Of a stretch of DNA of 52,348 bases, positions 1,777-10,582 are shown piece after piece. Source of the DNA: an uncultured Clostridia bacterium (GTDB lineage: Bacteria; Bacillota; Clostridia; Oscillospirales; Acutalibacteraceae); NCBI GenBank assembly GCA_946184295.1, contig CAMHEZ010000016.1, positions 1 to 52,348 of the forward strand, written 5' to 3'. The notes under the pieces are model-generated. The model saw only the letters and a program-made list of their open reading frames with translations. It did not search any database and was not told where the DNA came from. The translations under genes and the position numbers were made by a program. Each line of letters opens with the position of its first letter. Positions within the stretch are counted from its first letter, which is position 1.

Positions 1777-1805
1777 TTGACATTATGTGGTAATTGGGGT
1801 ATAAT
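1777..1805 (+). promoter_or_regulatory. Sigma-A promoter of the permease-GGDEF gene
   Basis: TTGACA at 1777-1782 and TATAAT at 1800-1805 with a 17-bp spacer, a consensus housekeeping promoter. The start codon at 1893 leaves a leader of roughly 80 nt with no obvious structure. Confidence 0.85.
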
Positions 1806-1892: not shown

Positions 1893-4103
1893 ATGCCAAA
1901 AAGATACAAAAAGCGTCTGCCGCCCTATCTGTCTCCGATAGGCGCGTGGGCATTCGCGCTCGGTACCAGTGTGGGATGGGGGTCTCTGGTGGTCACCAGC
2001 AATACATATCTCATGCAGGCAGGCCCCTTGGGAAGCTGTCTGGGTGTGATTCTGGGCGCGGTGGTCATGCTGATTATCGCGTGGAATTACCACTACATGA
2101 TGAATTGCTATCCCGAAACAGGCGGTTCCTACGCGTTTGTGCGCAACGCGATGGGCTTCGATCAAGGGTTTCTGATTGCGTGGTTTGTCATCATCACCTA
2201 TCTGGCGATGCTCTGGGCCAATGCTTCGTCGCTGCCGCTTTTTGCCCGGTATTTTATGGGAGATACCTTTGAGTTCGGGTATATGTACAACATCTTTGGC
2301 TATGACGTATATTTCGGTGAGGCGCTGCTTTCCATTGGCACACTGGTGATTATCGCGTTTCTCTGTTCCCGCCACAAGCGGCTGACGTCTTTGGCTATGA
2401 TCGCCTTGGCGACGGTTTTCTCGGTGGGGATTACAGTGTGCTTTCTGGTCTCGCTGGTGCGCAACCGCACGCCGGTGGAGCCTCAGGTGATTCCCGACAA
2501 GGATATCTTGCCGCAGGTTTTCAGGATTGCCGTTATTTCGCCGTGGGCTTTTATCGGTTTTGAGAATATTTCTCACGCGGCCGAGGAATTTCACTTCGAT
2601 CAGAAGCGTTCGTTTGAGGTGCTGTCTGTGGCCGTGGTCACCGCGGCGCTGCTGTATATCTTTGTAATCCTGTTGTCGGTTTCGGCCTATCCGCCGGAAT
2701 ACGCCAATTGGCTGGAATATATCCGTGATCTGCCCAATCTGAGCGGTATCAAGGGGCTTCCGCCTTTTTATGCCGCCCACCGTTACTTTGGCATGGCCGG
2801 CGTCTGGACGCTGCTGGCGGCGCTGCTGGCGCTTATCATCACCAGCCTGATTGGTAATATCTTCGCGCTCAGCCGCCTGTTTTACGCGCTTTCGCAGGAC
2901 GACCTTGTTTCCAAGAAATTCGCGGAGGTCAACGAGCGCGGCACGCCGGAAAAGGCGATCATCTTTATTGTGTGCGTTTCCGCCGTCATTCCCTTTATCG
3001 GTCGTACCGCCATTGGCTGGATTGTAGACGTCACTACCCTCGGCGCGACGATGATTTACGCGTTCGTTTCCTCGGCCACGGTGAAGATTGCCATGACGCG
3101 TGACGATACCATGGAAAAATACACAGGTGTGGCCGGTGTGGCTACCATGCTGATTTTTATGGTGTATGTGCTGGGTATGAGCGTTTTTACTACCAATTAC
3201 GCGATTGATAAAGCGGCCCTTTTCCTCTTTGCGGTGTGGGCTGTATTGGGTATCCTGTATTTCCGCGTGCTGCTGAAGAACGACAAAAAGAACCGCTTCG
3301 GCAAATCGCTTTCCGTATGGGTGGCGCTGCTCTCCCATCTCATGCTGATTTCATTGGTCTGGGTGAGCCAGATGATTATGGATGAAACGCACCAGGCGAT
3401 GATTAACATTCAACAGCATTATATCAACGCGGGATACGGCGCCGATCAGTCGTGGTTTATCGAAGAAGCGCTGGAGTCGATTCGCAATATCAACGCCCTG
3501 AGTGTGGTTGTAGTGGTTATCATTTTCGCGTCGGCTGTGGGGATTCTACTGACATCCTACACGCTTATGCGCAAACGGGCTAATCAGAGTGAGGAAGAAC
3601 TGAGTGCCATGCAGGAGATGGCCAATACCGATCCGTTGACCGGTGTGCGCAGCAAACACGCCTATGCGCAGATGGAAAAGGCTGTGGACGACGCTATTAA
3701 CGCTGGCACTGTGCCGAACTTTGCCGTAGTGGTGTGCGATGTGAACGGCCTGAAATTCGTCAACGATACGCTTGGCCATAAGGCCGGCGACGCTTATATC
3801 AAGTCGGCCAGCGAGATGATCAGCGGTATTTTCAAGCACAGCACAATCTATCGCACCGGCGGCGATGAATTTGTGGTGCTGCTGCGCGGCCGCGACTATA
3901 AGCACCGCGCAGAACTGCTCCATCAGCTTCACGATACCTCTGTGGCGCATATTGCCGAAGGAAGCGTTGTGGTTTCGGGCGGCAGCTCCGATTACGTGCC
4001 CAAGCAGGATCACGATATTCACGATGTGTTTGTGCGTGCCGACGCGCTGATGTATGAGGAAAAAATGAGCCTCAAGGGTATGGGCGCCAAGACCAGAGAA
4101 TAG
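1893..4103 (+). CDS. APC-superfamily amino acid permease fused to a GGDEF (diguanylate cyclase) domain
   Basis: A 736-residue fusion. Residues about 1-440 form an APC-type transporter: TM1 carries GTSVGWGS in the place of the substrate-binding unwound helix, followed by about 12 membrane segments and ETGGSYAFVRNAMGF in the first cytoplasmic/TM3 region. Two further membrane segments (about 468-490 and 530-553) flank an outside loop of about 40 residues. The C-terminus (about 575-730) is a GGDEF domain: DPLTG at 580, DVNGLKFVNDTLGHKAGD, and an intact GGDEF at 656-660, so c-di-GMP synthesis from two GTP is plausible. The position of the inhibitory RxxD site reads FKHS, so product feedback inhibition is probably absent. 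No EAL or HD-GYP domain. GTG 1881 is an alternative start. Inference: substrate sensing or transport controls cyclase output. Confidence 0.88.
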   Translation: MPKRYKKRLPPYLSPIGAWAFALGTSVGWGSLVVTSNTYLMQAGPLGSCLGVILGAVVMLIIAWNYHYMMNCYPETGGSYAFVRNAMGFDQGFLIAWFVIITYLAMLWANASSLPLFARYFMGDTFEFGYMYNIFGYDVYFGEALLSIGTLVIIAFLCSRHKRLTSLAMIALATVFSVGITVCFLVSLVRNRTPVEPQVIPDKDILPQVFRIAVISPWAFIGFENISHAAEEFHFDQKRSFEVLSVAVVTAALLYIFVILLSVSAYPPEYANWLEYIRDLPNLSGIKGLPPFYAAHRYFGMAGVWTLLAALLALIITSLIGNIFALSRLFYALSQDDLVSKKFAEVNERGTPEKAIIFIVCVSAVIPFIGRTAIGWIVDVTTLGATMIYAFVSSATVKIAMTRDDTMEKYTGVAGVATMLIFMVYVLGMSVFTTNYAIDKAALFLFAVWAVLGILYFRVLLKNDKKNRFGKSLSVWVALLSHLMLISLVWVSQMIMDETHQAMINIQQHYINAGYGADQSWFIEEALESIRNINALSVVVVVIIFASAVGILLTSYTLMRKRANQSEEELSAMQEMANTDPLTGVRSKHAYAQMEKAVDDAINAGTVPNFAVVVCDVNGLKFVNDTLGHKAGDAYIKSASEMISGIFKHSTIYRTGGDEFVVLLRGRDYKHRAELLHQLHDTSVAHIAEGSVVVSGGSSDYVPKQDHDIHDVFVRADALMYEEKMSLKGMGAKTRE

Positions 4104-4146
4104 GCAGGGTTTTGTCCGTTTGCGGACAAGCTTCCATTCATATGAT

Positions 4147-4197
4147 AAAAAAGGCGGAGCCTTGTGCGTTGATTCATCGCGCAAGGTCCCGCTTTTT
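4147..4197. terminator. Bidirectional terminator between convergent genes
   Basis: A long hairpin flanked by AAAAA on the left and TTTTT on the right (GCGGAGCCTTGTGCG pairing with CGCGCAAGGTCCCGC, with small bulges). It sits between the permease-GGDEF gene and the minus-strand lipoprotein gene and can serve both. Confidence 0.8.
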
Positions 4198-4198
4198 G

Positions 4199-5062
4199 TT
4201 AATACAAAACGTTCCAGTTGTCCGAAGTGCCATCTGTGATAAAGGTCACGTTGCCGCTGCGGGTGGAGTAGGCCTCCACACCGTATTCCTCCAGCAGAGA
4301 GAGCGTCTTTTCGTCTTCGGGTTCGTCGTCCGAGCCGGTCAGAATGGCGTATTCCGGCTGCACATGATCGAGCAGATCGTCGAGATTTTTCTCCCAGCCC
4401 CCGTGATGCGGCATTTTCAGGATATCGCTGCGCAGTCCGTCGATAGCAAGCAACTCATTGATGCGGGTCTTCTGCGCGTCGCCGGCAAAGAGAGCGGACG
4501 CTTTGCCATAGGTCATGCGCACGACGAGAGAGGAATTGTTGCTGATGTCCTTCTTGTAGTCGTCCTTCTCAGGCGGGAAGAGCTGCCACGTGACGCCGTC
4601 CTGTGTCAGGGTTGTCTCGGTCTTTACTGAAACCAGCGTCAGATGTTTGGCCGTCAGCGCTTTGGTGTATTGGTCGATGTCGTCTGATTCCTTGGCAATG
4701 TAGGAAGTAGTATACACTTTTCCGATGGTATAGTGCTTGATAAGCTTGTCCGCGCCGCCGACATGGTCGCGGTCGTAGTGGGTGAGAATCAGGGTGTCAA
4801 TGCGGGTGATGCCCTGTTCGTTCAGGTACATTTCCACATGGCCCGCCGATTCCTCGGTGCCCGTGTCGATGACCGTGACGGTTTCCGGTGAGCGGATGAC
4901 AATGCAGTCCGCCTTGCCGACGCTGAGTGCCGTGACGGTGACACTGCGCGAGGTTGCGTCGGCGGGGGTATTCTCTGTGCCGGCTGTATCCTTTTTGCAA
5001 CCGGTGAAAATTCCCATCAGCAGTGCGAGTGCCGCCGACGCGAGTTTTTTACATAATGACAT
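4199..5062 (-). CDS. Secreted ComEC-like metallo-beta-lactamase-fold lipoprotein
   Basis: A 287-residue protein with a lipoprotein signal (KK, hydrophobic core, lipobox FTGC at about residues 20-23). The rest is a metallo-beta-lactamase fold of the kind found in the C-terminal domain of the competence protein ComEC: VIDTG, then THYDRDHVGG (the HxDxDH metal site), a metal-binding GDA in LFAGDAQ, and MPHHGG. It lacks the ComEC membrane channel, so it is a stand-alone, membrane-anchored, outward-facing hydrolase. ComEC-type domains are considered nucleases or phosphodiesterases; the substrate here is not known. Start at 5062 is supported by AAAGGAGG 8 bases upstream. Confidence 0.85.
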   Translation of the reverse strand: MSLCKKLASAALALLMGIFTGCKKDTAGTENTPADATSRSVTVTALSVGKADCIVIRSPETVTVIDTGTEESAGHVEMYLNEQGITRIDTLILTHYDRDHVGGADKLIKHYTIGKVYTTSYIAKESDDIDQYTKALTAKHLTLVSVKTETTLTQDGVTWQLFPPEKDDYKKDISNNSSLVVRMTYGKASALFAGDAQKTRINELLAIDGLRSDILKMPHHGGWEKNLDDLLDHVQPEYAILTGSDDEPEDEKTLSLLEEYGVEAYSTRSGNVTFITDGTSDNWNVLY

Positions 5063-5186
5063 GGAACATGCCTCCTTTACCGCTATTATACACGGTCCCG
5101 ATGTGAAATGCAACATCTGTATTTGCCCGGTCTGGAAATCAATTTCATTTCATTTTCATTTCTTTGCCTTTTTCTGAAAAAAATGC

Positions 5187-5215
5187 TTGCAATTTAAGAA
5201 GACGTATGCTATAAT
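5187..5215 (+). promoter_or_regulatory. Sigma-A promoter of rpsB-tsf
   Basis: TTGCAA at 5187-5192 and TATAAT at 5210-5215 with a 17-bp spacer. Transcription would start near 5222, giving a leader of about 170 nt before rpsB. Confidence 0.8.
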
Positions 5216-5221
5216 TGATGA

Positions 5222-5390
5222 GAAATTCACACGCCGCGCTGTGGAGGGTGCGGTGCAGGGCTTACGGCAGCCGCCGGGGCTTTGTGGCTCTCCATTTGCT
5301 TAAATTTTTATCTTTACGGTGCGCTGGGCGCGCCTTTTTACACTGAGCTTAAAGTGTCGGCGGAGGTATTAACCGGGAGGAATTTTCACT
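5222..5390 (+). promoter_or_regulatory. Structured rpsB leader with an intrinsic-terminator-like hairpin
   Basis: The leader between the promoter and rpsB is GC-rich and foldable (CACGCCGCGC... and GGCAGCCGCCGGGGCTTTG). At 5318-5334 a 7-bp stem (GGTGCGC/GCGCGCC, loop TGG) is followed directly by TTTTT, which is the form of an intrinsic terminator inside the leader. Ribosomal protein genes are often controlled by their product through the leader, so this may be an attenuator, but I cannot match it to a named leader RNA. Confidence 0.5.
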
Positions 5391-6125
5391 ATGGCAGTAG
5401 CATCCATGAAACAGCTGCTTGAAGCAGGCGTCCACTTCGGACATCAGACCAGACGCTGGAACCCGAAAATGGCTGAGTACATTTTCACCGAGCGCAACGG
5501 CATCTACATCATCGACCTTCAGAAGACCGTCAGAAAGCTCGATGAAGCTTATGCCTTCGTGAGAACCGTTGCCGAGAACGGCGAATCTGTTCTCTTCGTC
5601 GGCACCAAGAAGCAGGCGCAGGAATCCATCAAGGAAGAAGCGCTCCGTTCCGATTCCTATTTTGTCAATGAGAGATGGCTCGGCGGTATGCTCACCAACT
5701 TCACCACCATTCGCCGCAGAATTGCCCGTCTCAACCAGCTCAATACCATGGCCACCGACGGCACCTTTGACAGACTCCCCAAGAAGGAAGTCATCAAGTT
5801 CAACCTCGAGATCGAGAAGCTCGAGAAGTTCCTCGGCGGTATCAAGAACATGAACAAACTCCCCGGCGCTCTCTTCATCGTTGACCCCCGCAAGGAGAAG
5901 ATCGCCGTTTCCGAGGCCAAGAAGCTCGGCATTCCCGTGGTCGCTATCGTTGACACCAACTGCGATCCCGACAACATCGACTATGTCATTCCCGGCAATG
6001 ACGACGCGATCCGCGCTGTCAAGCTCATCTCTTCTGTCATCGCCAACGCGATTATCGAAGGCAGACAGAGCGCTCAGGGCGAGGCCGAGGCACAGGCAGT
6101 CGAGGCAGAGGAAGCCGCTGAGTAA
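5391..6125 (+). CDS. rpsB: 30S ribosomal protein S2
   Basis: Structural protein of the small ribosomal subunit, 244 residues, within the usual length. The sequence shows classic S2 segments: [18 protein letters not shown] near the start, [20 protein letters not shown], and [13 protein letters not shown] with [13 protein letters not shown] near residue 205. The last 15 residues are a Glu/Ala-rich tail. The start has GGGAGG about 8 bases upstream. It forms an operon with tsf, the usual partner in bacteria. Confidence 0.98.
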
Positions 6126-6179
6126 TTATTGACTGTTGACTTTTGCTTTTATAGAAATTCGTTGTAGGAGGAATTTATC

Positions 6180-7103
6180 ATGGCTTTTACAGCAAGTGAT
6201 GTAAAGAATCTGAGAGAAATGACCGGCTGCGGCATGATGGACTGCAAGAAGGCACTCACCGAAGCTGACGGCGATATGGATAAGGCTGTTGACATTCTGC
6301 GCGAGAAGGGTCTCGCCGCTTCCCAGAAGAAGGCGGGCAGAATCGCTGCGGAAGGCACCGTTTACGCGCTTGTCGAGGGCAACACCGGTGTCGTGATCGA
6401 GGTCAACGCGGAAACCGACTTTGTTGCCAAGAACGCGGAGTTCATGGCCTTTGTCGATACCTGCGCCAAGACCGTCATCGCGGAGAATCCCGCTGATGTA
6501 GAGGCACTTCTGGCCTGCACCGCTGCGGGCAGCGATGTGACCATCGACGCAATGCTCAAGGAGAAGATTCTGGTGATCGGCGAGAACATCAAGATCCGCC
6601 GTTTTGTCAAGTACGAAGCTCCGGTAGTGACTTATGTCCACGGCGGCGGCAGAATCGGCGTTATGGTGAAGTTTGACACCACCGACGAAATCGCGGCGAA
6701 GCCCGAGTTCACTGATTTCGGCAAGGACGTTGCGATGCAGATCGCGGCTGTTAACCCCAAGTACCTCGTTCCCGAGGATATGCCCGCTGAGGAACTCGAG
6801 AAGGAAAAGGCCATTCTCATGGAGCAGATTCACAACGATCCCAAGAATGCCAAGAAGCCCCCGAAAATCATCGAAGAGAAGATTCTTCCCGGCCGCGTCA
6901 ACAAGCTGTTCGAGGAAATCTGCCTCTTGAAGCAGGCATTCGTCAAGGACAGCGATATCAACGTGGAGACTTATGTTGCCAACACCGCTAAGGCACTCGG
7001 CGGCGACATCAAGATTGTTTCTTTCGTCCGCTTTGAAAAGGGCGAGGGCCTCGAGAAGAGAGAAGAGAACTTCGCCGACGAAGTGGCCAGCATGATTAAG
7101 TAA
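6180..7103 (+). CDS. tsf: Translation elongation factor Ts
   Basis: EF-Ts is the nucleotide exchange factor that removes GDP from EF-Tu. The 307-residue protein shows the N-terminal UBA-like domain with the family signature LREMTGCGMMDCKKAL (about residues 10-25) and then EVNAETDFVAKN of the core domain (about residues 75-90), followed by the two dimerisation-type subdomains. TAGGAGG lies upstream of the ATG. It follows rpsB by 54 bases and precedes a strong terminator, so the operon is rpsB-tsf only. Confidence 0.98.
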   Translation: MAFTASDVKNLREMTGCGMMDCKKALTEADGDMDKAVDILREKGLAASQKKAGRIAAEGTVYALVEGNTGVVIEVNAETDFVAKNAEFMAFVDTCAKTVIAENPADVEALLACTAAGSDVTIDAMLKEKILVIGENIKIRRFVKYEAPVVTYVHGGGRIGVMVKFDTTDEIAAKPEFTDFGKDVAMQIAAVNPKYLVPEDMPAEELEKEKAILMEQIHNDPKNAKKPPKIIEEKILPGRVNKLFEEICLLKQAFVKDSDINVETYVANTAKALGGDIKIVSFVRFEKGEGLEKREENFADEVASMIK

Positions 7104-7140
7104 TTTTGCTCTTCTCATTCACCGACATTTGAATATGGCG

Positions 7141-7185
7141 TCCCTCCTGCGACCGATTTTTGATCGGCTGCGGGAGGGATTTTTG
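7141..7185 (+). terminator. Rho-independent terminator of rpsB-tsf
   Basis: A long stem, TCCCTCCTGC... pairing with ...GCGGGAGGGA, with inner pairing of CCGATT region around 7155-7168, followed by ATTTTTG. Confidence 0.9.
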
Positions 7186-7279
7186 TCTGTATCCGATTTA
7201 TCGAAATACCCCCGTTCTCTTAACCTTTTCTAAACCTTTGGGGCGTATCATAAAACCATCGAAAGGAAAGGTGAGCTTC

Positions 7280-8203
7280 ATGGGCAACACGATTCTCAAA
7301 ACCGAAAATATCATCAAGAAATACGGCAGCACCACCGTTCTCAACAATGTGAGCATCACACTCGAAAACGGCAGAATTTACGGGTTGATCGGCGTCAACG
7401 GCGCGGGCAAGACCACACTGATGCGCCAGATTCTTGGGCTGTCGGTTCCGGATTCCGGTGAGATCGAGCTTTTTGGCAAGCGCGGCAGACAGGCCGCCGC
7501 TGAACGCAGCAGAATGGGCTGTCTGATCGAAGCACCCGGTCTGGTACTGAACCTTACGGCCAAACAAAATCTTCACCTCCACCGCATCATGCACGGCATT
7601 GCCGACAAGGAAATTGAGGACAAACTGCTGGAAACTGTGGGTCTGGCTAACATCGGCAAAAAGAAGGCGAAAGATTTTTCCCTCGGTATGAAACAGCGCC
7701 TCGGCATCGCTATCGCGCTTTTGACCAATCCCGAGCTGGTCATTCTCGACGAACCCATCAACGGTTTGGATCCCATCGGCGTGGTGGAAATCCGGGAGCT
7801 GATTAAAACACTCTGTGAGGAACGGGGCATGACGATTCTGATTTCCAGCCATAATCTGCCTGAGTTGTATCAATGCGCGACGGATTACATTATCATTGAC
7901 CACGGCGAGGTCAAGCAGGAAATCAGCTTGGAAGAGCTGGAGGAGAAATGCCGCCACTACCTGCTGATTGAGACCGATGATACCGGCAAGCTGACTGCTG
8001 TGCTGGAAGAAAAACTCGGCACCGCGAATTTCAAGGTAATGCCCGACAAGAGCGTACAGCTTTACGACTTTACAGAAGAACGCGACAGGGTAGCCGACGT
8101 GCTGTTTGAAAACAGCATACGTATCAGGGGATTCGCGCTGAAAGGCGAAACGCTGGAGAACTATTTTATTTCGGTCGTCAGAGGTACGCAGGCGTCTGTG
8201 TGA
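7280..8203 (+). CDS. ABC transporter ATP-binding protein (BcrA/lantibiotic-exporter type)
   Basis: A 307-residue ATPase subunit. Walker A is GVNGAGKTT (about residues 38-46), the signature is FSLGMKQRLGIA (about 135), Walker B is LVILDEPINGLD (about 154), and the H-loop is ISSHNLPEL. The C-terminal about 80 residues form the extra regulatory domain typical of ABC-2 exporters for bacitracin or lantibiotic resistance. ATG 7280 has AGGAAAGG 8 bases upstream; an in-frame upstream extension overlaps the tsf terminator and is unlikely. It is followed after 13 bases by its permease. Substrate unknown. Confidence 0.88.
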   Translation: MGNTILKTENIIKKYGSTTVLNNVSITLENGRIYGLIGVNGAGKTTLMRQILGLSVPDSGEIELFGKRGRQAAAERSRMGCLIEAPGLVLNLTAKQNLHLHRIMHGIADKEIEDKLLETVGLANIGKKKAKDFSLGMKQRLGIAIALLTNPELVILDEPINGLDPIGVVEIRELIKTLCEERGMTILISSHNLPELYQCATDYIIIDHGEVKQEISLEELEEKCRHYLLIETDDTGKLTAVLEEKLGTANFKVMPDKSVQLYDFTEERDRVADVLFENSIRIRGFALKGETLENYFISVVRGTQASV

Positions 8204-8216
8204 GGAGGAAACCATC

Positions 8217-9011
8217 ATGTTCAATTTGATTAGAGCGGATTTTTACAAAATCAATCGTTCAATGATTTATAAAGTGTTGTTTGCCATTACGGCAGTGTCC
8301 GCGGTGATCACGACGGTGGTTTCGCACAGAGTTTATGCGGGCGAGATGGATTTTGCTGCCGCGTCCGCCACGGCCATGCTCACCGATGTAGTGATCCTCA
8401 GTCTGGTGAGCTGCGTGATTGCGGGTCAGCTCATCTGCGGCGACTTTGAGAACAAGCTCATGCAGTCCTCGCTCACCGGCACCAGCAGCCGCCTGACGGT
8501 GGTGTGTGCCAAGATAATTTCCTTTACAGCACTGATTGGCATCATGTCACTGCCCTACGCGCTCTGCGCGGTTATCGGCGCGGCCACGGGCGCAGGCTTC
8601 TCGGTTCCGTTTTCGGCTTCGACCTATCTCAAAATGCTGTCCGACGCCACGAAAAACGATGTGACCGGCGGCGTGTTGGTCAAGTTTGCCGCTATCGGTT
8701 TGATTATGATGCTGGTCTACGCGGCACAGACGGGTATTGTCTTCCTGTTGGGCTTTCTCATGAAGAACAAGCCTCTTGTCGTGACCATTATCGGCTTTAT
8801 TCTTTCCACAATCGTGGGAATGAGCAGCTCACTCTTGGACGATTCCCTTGACAAGGTACTTGGATTTACACCCTACAGCGCCGATATTTACGCGCTCGGC
8901 AGCGATACAGGTTACGGAACCATCGGCAAGATCGCCGTGATTTGTGTCGCATGGATTGTTGCTTTCGCCGGTATCAGCTATGCCGCCTTCCGCAAGGCTG
9001 AGGTTAAGTAG
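8217..9011 (+). CDS. ABC-2 type transporter permease
   Basis: A 264-residue membrane protein with about six hydrophobic segments (near residues 18-36, 56-76, 104-126, 155-180, 182-205 and 236-256), the usual pattern of an ABC-2 exporter permease. It begins with the typical short cytoplasmic start MFNLIRADFYKINRS. GAGGAGG lies upstream and the gene follows its ATPase by 13 bases. Both form one exporter, perhaps for a peptide or for self-protection; no biosynthetic genes lie nearby. Confidence 0.82.
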   Translation: MFNLIRADFYKINRSMIYKVLFAITAVSAVITTVVSHRVYAGEMDFAAASATAMLTDVVILSLVSCVIAGQLICGDFENKLMQSSLTGTSSRLTVVCAKIISFTALIGIMSLPYALCAVIGAATGAGFSVPFSASTYLKMLSDATKNDVTGGVLVKFAAIGLIMMLVYAAQTGIVFLLGFLMKNKPLVVTIIGFILSTIVGMSSSLLDDSLDKVLGFTPYSADIYALGSDTGYGTIGKIAVICVAWIVAFAGISYAAFRKAEVK

Positions 9012-9040
9012 TTGTCATTCATTCACAGTCAGCATATGAA

Positions 9041-9100
9041 AACACGTCCCCGCCGGAAGCGAGCGAAGTCCGCGCTTGCTTTCGGCGGGTGCGTGTGTTA
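9041..9100 (+). terminator. Large hairpin after the ABC-2 exporter genes
   Basis: A 16-bp stem with few mismatches (CCCGCCGGAAGCGAGC pairing with GCTTGCTTTCGGCGGG), extended outward by ACACG/CGTGT. There is no clear T run after it, so termination may be inefficient. Confidence 0.55.
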
Positions 9101-9171
9101 TCATAAGGGCGCAACGCATGACGATAAATTATAAACTTTTTATGAAAATTCCAAATTTATGCGTCGTTCAC

Positions 9172-9200
9172 TTGAAAAATCCAAAGAAATATTGTAGAAT
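9172..9200 (+). promoter_or_regulatory. Sigma-A promoter of pgi
   Basis: TTGAAA at 9172-9177 and TAGAAT at 9195-9200 with a 17-bp spacer, giving a leader of about 35 nt. Confidence 0.7.
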
Positions 9201-9241
9201 AAACTAGCTGTTATTACAAAAAACAGGAGGCAAAATGACGC

Positions 9242-10582
9242 ATGGCTGTTACATTAAATAGCAAGTATATTGCCGATTTTGTGTCGGCAGATGAATTAAA
9301 GGCGATTGCGCCGCAGATTGCAGCCGCTCACGATACCCTGCACAACGGTACGGGGCTGGGCAACGATTTTCTCGGCTGGCTGGGTCTTCCCACCCATTAC
9401 GACAAGGAGGAGTTTGCCCGCATCAAGGCGGCGGCCGAGCGCATCAAGGCAAATTCCGACGTGTTCATCGTTATCGGCATCGGCGGTTCCTACCTCGGTG
9501 CGAGAGCGGCAATCGAGTTTCTGACCTCGCCCAATTACAATCTCACCTGCAAGGACACGCCCCAGATTTTCTTTACGGGCAATTCCATCAGCTCCGCCGC
9601 GCTCAATGAGATCGTCGCGCTGTGCGAGGGCAAGCGGGTTTCCATCAATATGATTTCCAAGTCGGGTACCACCACGGAGCCTGCCATTGCGTTCCGCGTG
9701 CTGCGCGGTCTGCTGGAGGAGCGTTACGGCAAGGAAGGCGCCAGAGAGCGCATTTTCTGCACGACCGACAAAGCCAAAGGTACGCTGAAAGCGCTGGCCG
9801 ATACCGAGGGATATGAGACCTTTGTTGTACCGGATGACGTGGGCGGCCGTTTCTCTGTGCTGACCGCTGTGGGTCTGCTGCCCATTGCCGTGGCGGGTGC
9901 GGATATTGACGCGCTGATGGCCGGCGCCAAGGAAGCGCAGGATTCCCTCAATGACACCGATCTGGACAAGAACGACGCCTACAAGTACGCCGCTGTGCGC
10001 AATATCCTCTATCGCAAGGGCTATTGCACGGAGCTGCTCGTGAGCTATGAGCCTTACTTCCAGCTCATGAGCGAGTGGTGGAAGCAGCTCTACGGCGAGA
10101 GTGAAGGCAAGGACAACAAGGGTCTGCTGCCGGATTCGGTGATTTTCTCCACCGATCTGCACTCCCTTGGTCAGTATATCCAGTCCGGCAGACGCAATCT
10201 CTTTGAAACGGTTGTGCAGATTGAAAAGGCCAAGAGTGAAGTCACCATCGGCACCGATCCCACCAATGTGGACGGCCTGAATTTCCTTGCGGGCAAGACC
10301 ATGGATTATGTCAACAAGAAGGCGTTTCAGGGCACCGTTCTGGCGCACAACGACGGCGGCGTGCCGAACATGATCCTGTCGGTTCCCGAGGCCAATGAAT
10401 TTGAACTTGGCTGGCTGATCTATTTCTTTGAGAAGGCCTGCGCCATCTCCGGCTATACGCTCGGTGTGAATCCCTTCAACCAGCCCGGTGTGGAGGCGTA
10501 CAAGAAGAATATGTTCGCGCTTCTCGGCAAGCCCGGCTACGAAGAGCAGAAGGCGGCGCTGGAAGCGAGACTGGGCGAGTAA
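9242..10582 (+). CDS. pgi: Glucose-6-phosphate isomerase
   Basis: Interconverts glucose 6-phosphate and fructose 6-phosphate in glycolysis; cytoplasmic. The 446-residue length is that of the short Firmicute form. Visible family segments are [16 protein letters not shown] (about residue 79), SKSGTTTEP (about 140) for phosphate binding, [19 protein letters not shown] (about 201) and the C-terminal [12 protein letters not shown]. The ATG at 9242 is in frame with the family; an ATG at 9235 is out of frame. AGGAGG lies 11 bases before the start. The product feeds both glycolysis with the downstream phosphofructokinase and glycogen synthesis. Confidence 0.97.

Follow-up and report, generated by a model that had tools for sequence, protein, structure and literature searches.

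A permease–GGDEF protein of an uncultured Clostridia bacterium and its little-described family of probable transporter-derived receptors in Bacillota

The window, i.e. the whole stretch of 52,348 nucleotides of contig CAMHEZ010000016.1 that was analysed, carries on its forward strand a gene (1893..4103) for an APC permease followed by two added membrane helices, TM13 and TM14, and a GGDEF domain. The frame runs from an ATG at 1893 to a TAG ending at 4103 and encodes 736 aa with no internal stops; as Pfam and AF2 agree, the single unbroken transporter and GGDEF frame described in the first-pass annotation is borne out. A sigma-70-type promoter-like site (TTGACA-17-TATAAT, 1777..1805, forward strand) matches the consensus at 12 of 12 positions, its use being predicted from this match, and a strong hairpin 3' of the gene (4149..4197, forward strand; minimum free energy -30.4 kcal/mol, z -4.93) is a possible terminator. 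Because of this perfect site and the hairpin, the gene looks like a single-gene unit. Further upstream, Pfam identifies a PadR-type regulator (135-584) and then a DUF2812 membrane protein (599-1330), both on the forward strand. The downstream neighbour (4199-5116, reverse strand) is a metallo-beta-lactamase-fold protein (Pfam Lactamase_B, 80.8 bits), which looks secreted and resembles the C-terminal part of ComEC; two anti-phage system models match it weakly, far below their cut-offs. It had been described as a secreted ComEC-like hydrolase. The fold agrees with this description, but the ComEC_Rec2 match (89.2 bits) lies below the model cut-off of 190, and a search of 10 relative loci at E 1e-8 did not recover it. 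Since it was not seen beside the relatives examined, this neighbour provides no evidence for the function of the permease–GGDEF protein.

The window comes from a draft genome in 65 contigs, and two adjacent genes could have been fused through an error of sequencing or assembly, a concern already raised with the first reading. This is extremely improbable: the same architecture occurs in other genomes, where it can be aligned through the junction (G006, G090, L034, L035, G199 and G309), and the codons are constrained on both sides. A set of 98 genomes that includes the window's own has the full architecture in G006 (70% identity), in G090 (53%) and, split into two pieces on two contigs, in G001. 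L034 (Eubacterium sp.) and L035 (Lachnospiraceae bacterium UBA3711) are two further loci with this architecture. Conservation of the fusion within a family, suggested earlier as a check, is thus seen in full-length relatives from other genomes. Between the window and G006, dN/dS was 0.21/1.40 for the permease, 0.24/2.84 for TM13-TM14, where dS is close to saturation, and 0.17/1.09 for the GGDEF part. Judged from these codon comparisons, purifying selection is acting on the three parts alike.

The permease domain covers residues 10 to 465 approximately (1920..3287, forward strand). Pfam AA_permease_2 matches residues 13-430 with 85 bits against a cut-off of 27, placing the protein in this family. 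The AF2 model, calculated as a monomer from an alignment of 40 sequences (window protein plus relatives), has a mean pLDDT of 93.9 and a pTM of 0.83. Foldseek matches of the permease part are y+LAT1, AdiC, GkApcT and CATs, with TM-scores by target length of 0.75-0.82 for 8xxi, 5j4i, 5oqt and 6f34; the model and its matches to AdiC, GkApcT and LAT structures identify a LeuT-type fold. The added helical hairpin TM13-TM14 and a signalling helix occupy residues 473-577 (3309..3623, forward strand) as AF2 helices 473-513 and 520-577, the second of which continues unbroken into the GGDEF fold. Residues 496-537 contain 1 K/R and 6 D/E, and residues 462-474 contain 5 K/R and 1 D/E, counts consistent with an N-terminus in the cytoplasm and a hairpin on the outside. 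The helices and charges therefore agree with the two extra membrane segments and outside loop noticed initially. The GGDEF domain itself (residues 577-725, 3621..4067, forward strand) scores 71.9 bits in Pfam against a cut-off of 23.8 and belongs to the family. DPLTG (580-584), CDVNGLKFVNDTLGHKAGD (615-633) and GGDEF (656-660), which we take to be the catalytic and metal/GTP motifs of cyclases, can all be read, so that the earlier description of intact motifs holds and a degenerate GGDEF domain was rejected.

In other Bacillota, the permease and two-helix module can be aligned to about residue 568, with different outputs beyond this point. Based on Pfam analysis of 10 chosen proteins (8 receptors and 2 stand-alone permeases), the output is HD_5 in L007 and L041, HisKA-HATPase-REC in L011 and L094, GGDEF in L040 and, in a 1311-aa protein of L035, GGDEF (two stretches), REC and EAL (GGDEF-REC-GGDEF-EAL); only HATPase was matched in the output of L050 (24.7 bits, below the cut-off of 26.4) and L058 (54.8 bits). 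Motif patterns divide 86 distinct sequences, after removal of those shorter than 400 aa, one spurious frame and near-copies, into 46 kinase, 18 GGDEF and 6 HD-GYP receptors and 16 stand-alone permeases. Because at most 30 loci were taken per search, kinases from the order of G508 make up too large a share here, and weaker matches from that order were left out; the hybrid kinase L118, missed by the start pattern, lies outside the set. In six of the 46 kinases, the first phospho-acceptor pattern is not the usual SHDIRTP or SHEIRTP; some of these may be degenerate and others may be slips of the pattern. The GGDEF motif is present in all 18 GGDEF-type receptors, window included, and the D-x-N...GH-x-x-GD pattern fitted 15 of them (not L068, L071 and L109). 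The RxxD feedback site had been reported as absent from the window protein, correctly: R at -9 and D at -6 before GGDEF, presumably the I-site position, are lacking in 18 of 18 GGDEF receptors, window included. The combination had also been called unusual. The fusion is indeed conserved, but it is no isolated oddity, being one branch of an output-exchanging receptor family.

Some arrangements of receptor genes were observed as well. In L035, a GGDEF receptor (3540-5735, forward strand) and the GGDEF-REC-GGDEF-EAL receptor (6097-10029, reverse strand) meet at their ends. Tandem receptor kinases are encoded on the reverse strand in L159 (5507-7951 and 7947-10418), L160 (396-2939 and 2923-5400) and L164 (5495-7993 and 7993-10515), with frames that touch or overlap. 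Tandem kinases are possibly paired or partly degenerate; the two that were scanned, L050 and L058, gave the HATPase match only. A 997-aa hybrid kinase on the forward strand adjoins the tandem pair of L159, and its outside part resembles, by eye, two solute-binding-protein domains. In L013 (G014), the HD-GYP receptor gene is split between two frames and lacks part of the permease, owing to decay or an assembly error.

The receptors have TM13 and TM14 and the stand-alone relatives lack them, as would be expected if the outside hairpin between them were the sensor and the permease an anchor or passive transporter. However, across the 70 receptors the share of the commonest residue is only 0.38 in the hairpin, compared to 0.78 in TM1, 0.74 in TM3 and 0.70 in TM6; it is 0.75 in the TM10 region, 0.65 in TM13, 0.61 in the whole permease, 0.52 in the linker and 0.51 in TM14. 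In addition, the loop measures 44-49 residues in the GGDEF types but just 14-35 in one HD-GYP and eight kinase receptors (9/70). Sensing by the hairpin is thus improbable. As the hairpin is the least conserved part and so short in these nine proteins, the sensor is probably to be placed in the permease part and not in the outside loop.

A tree was constructed on the permease region only, with 65 rows, the kinases being thinned from 46 to 24, and one outgroup. All 48 sampled receptors form one clade (bootstrap/SH-aLRT 100/99) beside the stand-alone permeases, and the 24 GGDEF and HD-GYP receptors form one clade as well (100/100). By parsimony, at least three output changes are needed, a count that gives no direction. 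With the root on L015, a long branch, the stand-alone permeases lie outside and the kinases branch first. HD-GYP outputs occur at two separate positions, one being the single, long-branched L041; L115 is also a long branch, of unsure placement. Within this sample, the tree shows a single origin of the putative permease sensor module, with exchanged outputs. The simplest history would lead from a transporter to a receptor kinase and then to c-di-GMP enzymes.

By their labels, all genomes searched belong to one phylum, Bacillota. At a sensor-profile threshold of E <= 1e-60, matches, which include stand-alone permeases, were obtained in at least 11 of 391 genomes of the class, at least 10 of 398 of the phylum, 7 of 95 of the order of G199, 53 of 121 of the order of G508 and 12 of 245 of the window's own order, in sets that overlap. 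Counted by open-frame length, receptors occur in at least 7 of 391, at least 4 of 398, 7 of 95, 52 of 121 and 9 of 245 genomes, respectively; for the class and phylum, up to three candidates were scored per genome and receptors were possibly missed. Within the window's genus, matches were found in 7 of 18 genomes at 1e-30, with GGDEF receptors in G000, G001 and G006 and HD-GYP receptors in G003, G010, G012 and G014 (broken). No genome of the genus was seen with both a GGDEF and an HD-GYP receptor, several of these assemblies being incomplete. A plasmid collection gave 13 records with 23.0-27.5% identity, none covering 80% of the query, and the best matches in a viral structure library were GGDEF and permease as separate proteins.

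Using thresholds chosen in the script, 22 of 465 columns separate the 70 receptors from the 16 stand-alone relatives. Position 224 is E in 68/70 receptors versus D in 16/16 stand-alone permeases, position 227 is S or T in 68/70 versus P in 16/16, position 322 is N in 58/70 versus F in 15/16, and position 108 is W in 68/70 versus P in 13/16. As these substitutions were inherited from a common ancestor, 68/70 does not represent 68 independent events. The TM1 motif GTSVGWG (residues 24-30, 1962..1982, forward strand) contains W29, found in 69/70 receptors. In a profile alignment to GkApcT (6f34), with the residue pairs numbered by hand, the TM6 receptor signature E224-H228 (2562..2576, forward strand) is aligned with D237-T241 (E224 with D237, H228 with T241) and N322 in TM8 (2856..2858, forward strand) with M321; R328 is paired with R327, Y255 with Y268, I221 with I234, T102 with E115 and F176 with K191. 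According to the available text on GkApcT, residue D237 shows high conservation within SLC7, function is completely lost when it is replaced by alanine, the thin intracellular gate consists of M321, I234 and E115, with D237 and T241 helping it to close, and Y268 is a conserved binding-site residue (PMC5803215). The 22 separating columns include two of the eight mapped GkApcT residues, against an expectation of about 0.4 (rough hand binomial about 0.05). This coincidence of separating columns with gate residues, seen at the level of the alignment, is suggestive, not strong.

The same residues bear on whether the permease still transports. It might be a true transceptor, in which the signal reports substrate flux or the transport cycle and not mere occupancy, and this is quite possible, if not the reading we would choose. 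Ordinary stand-alone permeases are among the close relatives, R328 (R327 of GkApcT) is kept in 66/70 receptors and Y255 (Y268) in 70/70, as it is in 16/16 stand-alone permeases, and CbrA transports L-histidine according to the text available (PMC7096432). Against this, 68/70 receptors have a changed residue at the D237 position, although the replacement, E, retains the charge. At the position of E115, the proton site, the receptors have T, V, L, I, A or S; this does not separate a transceptor from a receptor, because the stand-alone relatives also lack the Glu.

Taken together, the protein is likely a membrane receptor in which an amino-acid-permease fold governs a diguanylate cyclase. The ligand would be a small amine, amino acid or amino-sulfonate, bound centrally between TM1, TM3, TM6 and TM8, and occupancy of this site would move the intracellular gate. 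TM13-TM14, together with the continuous helix 520-577, might relay this motion to the output, where a shift of the helix would alter how two GGDEF domains meet and hence c-di-GMP synthesis. As there is no I-site, control would come from the sensor and the phosphodiesterases of the cell. The genome encodes at least three further GGDEF proteins, one EAL and five HD-GYP proteins, and no PilZ effector was found in it; a c-di-GMP-I riboswitch search was uninformative, as the control gave no signal anywhere. The first-pass annotation had proposed that the output is set mainly by the transporter part. Sensing by the permease is the best reading of the conserved fusion and its relatives, and to that extent the proposal stands. 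Coupling by the transporter part is, however, not proven even in CbrA, since its kinase activities were not significantly affected by L-histidine in the text available (PMC7096432). The flow could also be reversed, with the cytoplasmic domain regulating transport through GTP or c-di-GMP binding. Nothing specific favours this, apart from the c-di-AMP-bound KimA, a nucleotide-controlled APC fold, among the Foldseek matches. Kinase, HD-GYP and GGDEF outputs on one module fit a shared input better than a shared regulator, and the GGDEF motifs are intact with the I-site missing, which makes regulation in this direction very improbable.

With regard to the ligand, the neighbourhoods of 36 stretches, the window and 35 relatives, were compared. 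Two neighbour groups occur in more than four stretches, one in 12 and one in 6, and the eight members read from them by eye belong to the GGDEF, EAL or hybrid-kinase types. An ABC ATPase and a rhodanese-like lipoprotein occur among three smaller groups (4, 4 and 3 stretches). As read by eye, GGDEF or EAL genes adjoin the receptor gene in several genomes from the order of G199. Beside outer stand-alone relatives, neighbours match Xsc (772 bits, cut-off 676), CuyA (543, cut-off 450), CuyB (252, cut-off 190) and alanine dehydrogenase (513, cut-off 392). In G570, the gene beside an outer stand-alone permease encodes sulfoacetaldehyde acetyltransferase; in G486, D-cysteate sulfo-lyase, cysteate racemase and a HisD-type dehydrogenase are found beside one, and alanine dehydrogenase with a class III aminotransferase beside a stand-alone permease. 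The permeases concerned (L141, L143 and L144, from G570 and G486) are of the same subfamily, with tandem copies in two loci, and this context suggests them as candidate taurine or cysteate permeases. An amino-sulfonate ligand was proposed because these outer relatives adjoin Xsc and CuyA/CuyB. Near L112, L113, L114 and L043, the stand-alone permeases nearest to the receptors, no sulfonate genes were seen by eye, and one of their neighbours put to NCBIfam had no match at 1e-20. As no such genes were seen beside these nearest permeases, a sulfonate ligand for the receptors is a lead only.

Several known systems resemble this arrangement. According to the literature text available, CbrA likewise has a secondary-transporter fold as the input of a signalling enzyme in one chain, and the SLC5-STAC sensor kinases CrbS and RpuS follow the same principle. 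These kinases combine an SLC5 domain, a STAC linker and a kinase output, whereas the window family has an APC domain, the TM13-TM14 hairpin and also GGDEF, HD-GYP or EAL outputs. In the window protein, Pfam matches above cut-off on the membrane part are two AA_permease families only, with no SLC5 domain. There is no STAC match in Pfam, which may hold no STAC model, and AF2 places the hairpin there; the output by Pfam is GGDEF, histidine kinases being found only in relatives. These tests place the protein outside the SLC5-STAC kinases. In yeast, transceptors such as Gap1 are, in the sources available, likewise amino acid permeases with a receptor function, acting on protein kinase A. To our knowledge, Gap1 has no enzyme in the same chain, and a transporter fold with a signalling enzyme in one bacterial chain has been described mainly for SLC5-STAC and Amt kinases. 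Ks-Amt5, a transporter-family protein with a C-terminal kinase, is also read as an ammonium sensor in the text available (PMC10433425), but it has an Amt fold, not LeuT, and a kinase output. The 5TMR proteins also have a transporter-related membrane fold with GGDEF, EAL and kinase outputs; their fold is a five-helix, S-component-like one, and the fusion to an NRAMP transporter described in the accessible text adds NRAMP to 5TMR, not to GGDEF (PMC11109136). By profile and fold, GkApcT and CAT (SLC7) are the closest solved relatives of the permease part, but they are without a signalling output and have D, not E, in TM6. In the open-access full text available, no description was found of an APC permease that carries a GGDEF, HD-GYP or kinase output. 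The window protein is therefore probably a transporter-fold receptor that uses a known principle, with SLC5-STAC and Ks-Amt5 nearest, on another fold, and the sequence comparisons suggest a little-described family of such receptors.

More tentatively, one conversion of an APC transporter may have given rise to a dedicated, probably non-transporting receptor family in Bacillota. The intracellular gate would have been remodelled, with D replaced by E in TM6 and a large residue by N in TM8; two motion-carrying helices would have been added and the output changed three or more times (histidine kinase to c-di-GMP enzymes; GGDEF/HD-GYP), the ligand perhaps being a taurine- or cysteate-like amino-sulfonate. 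If this holds, one sensor could raise or lower c-di-GMP or drive a phosphorelay. Having a single origin, stand-alone permeases as close relatives and outputs of three kinds, the family is a natural experiment on the step from carrier to receptor, because the residues separating receptors from permeases are few and can be exchanged both ways. The inputs of c-di-GMP and two-component proteins of Bacillota are mostly unknown, and the family would suggest an input class for them.
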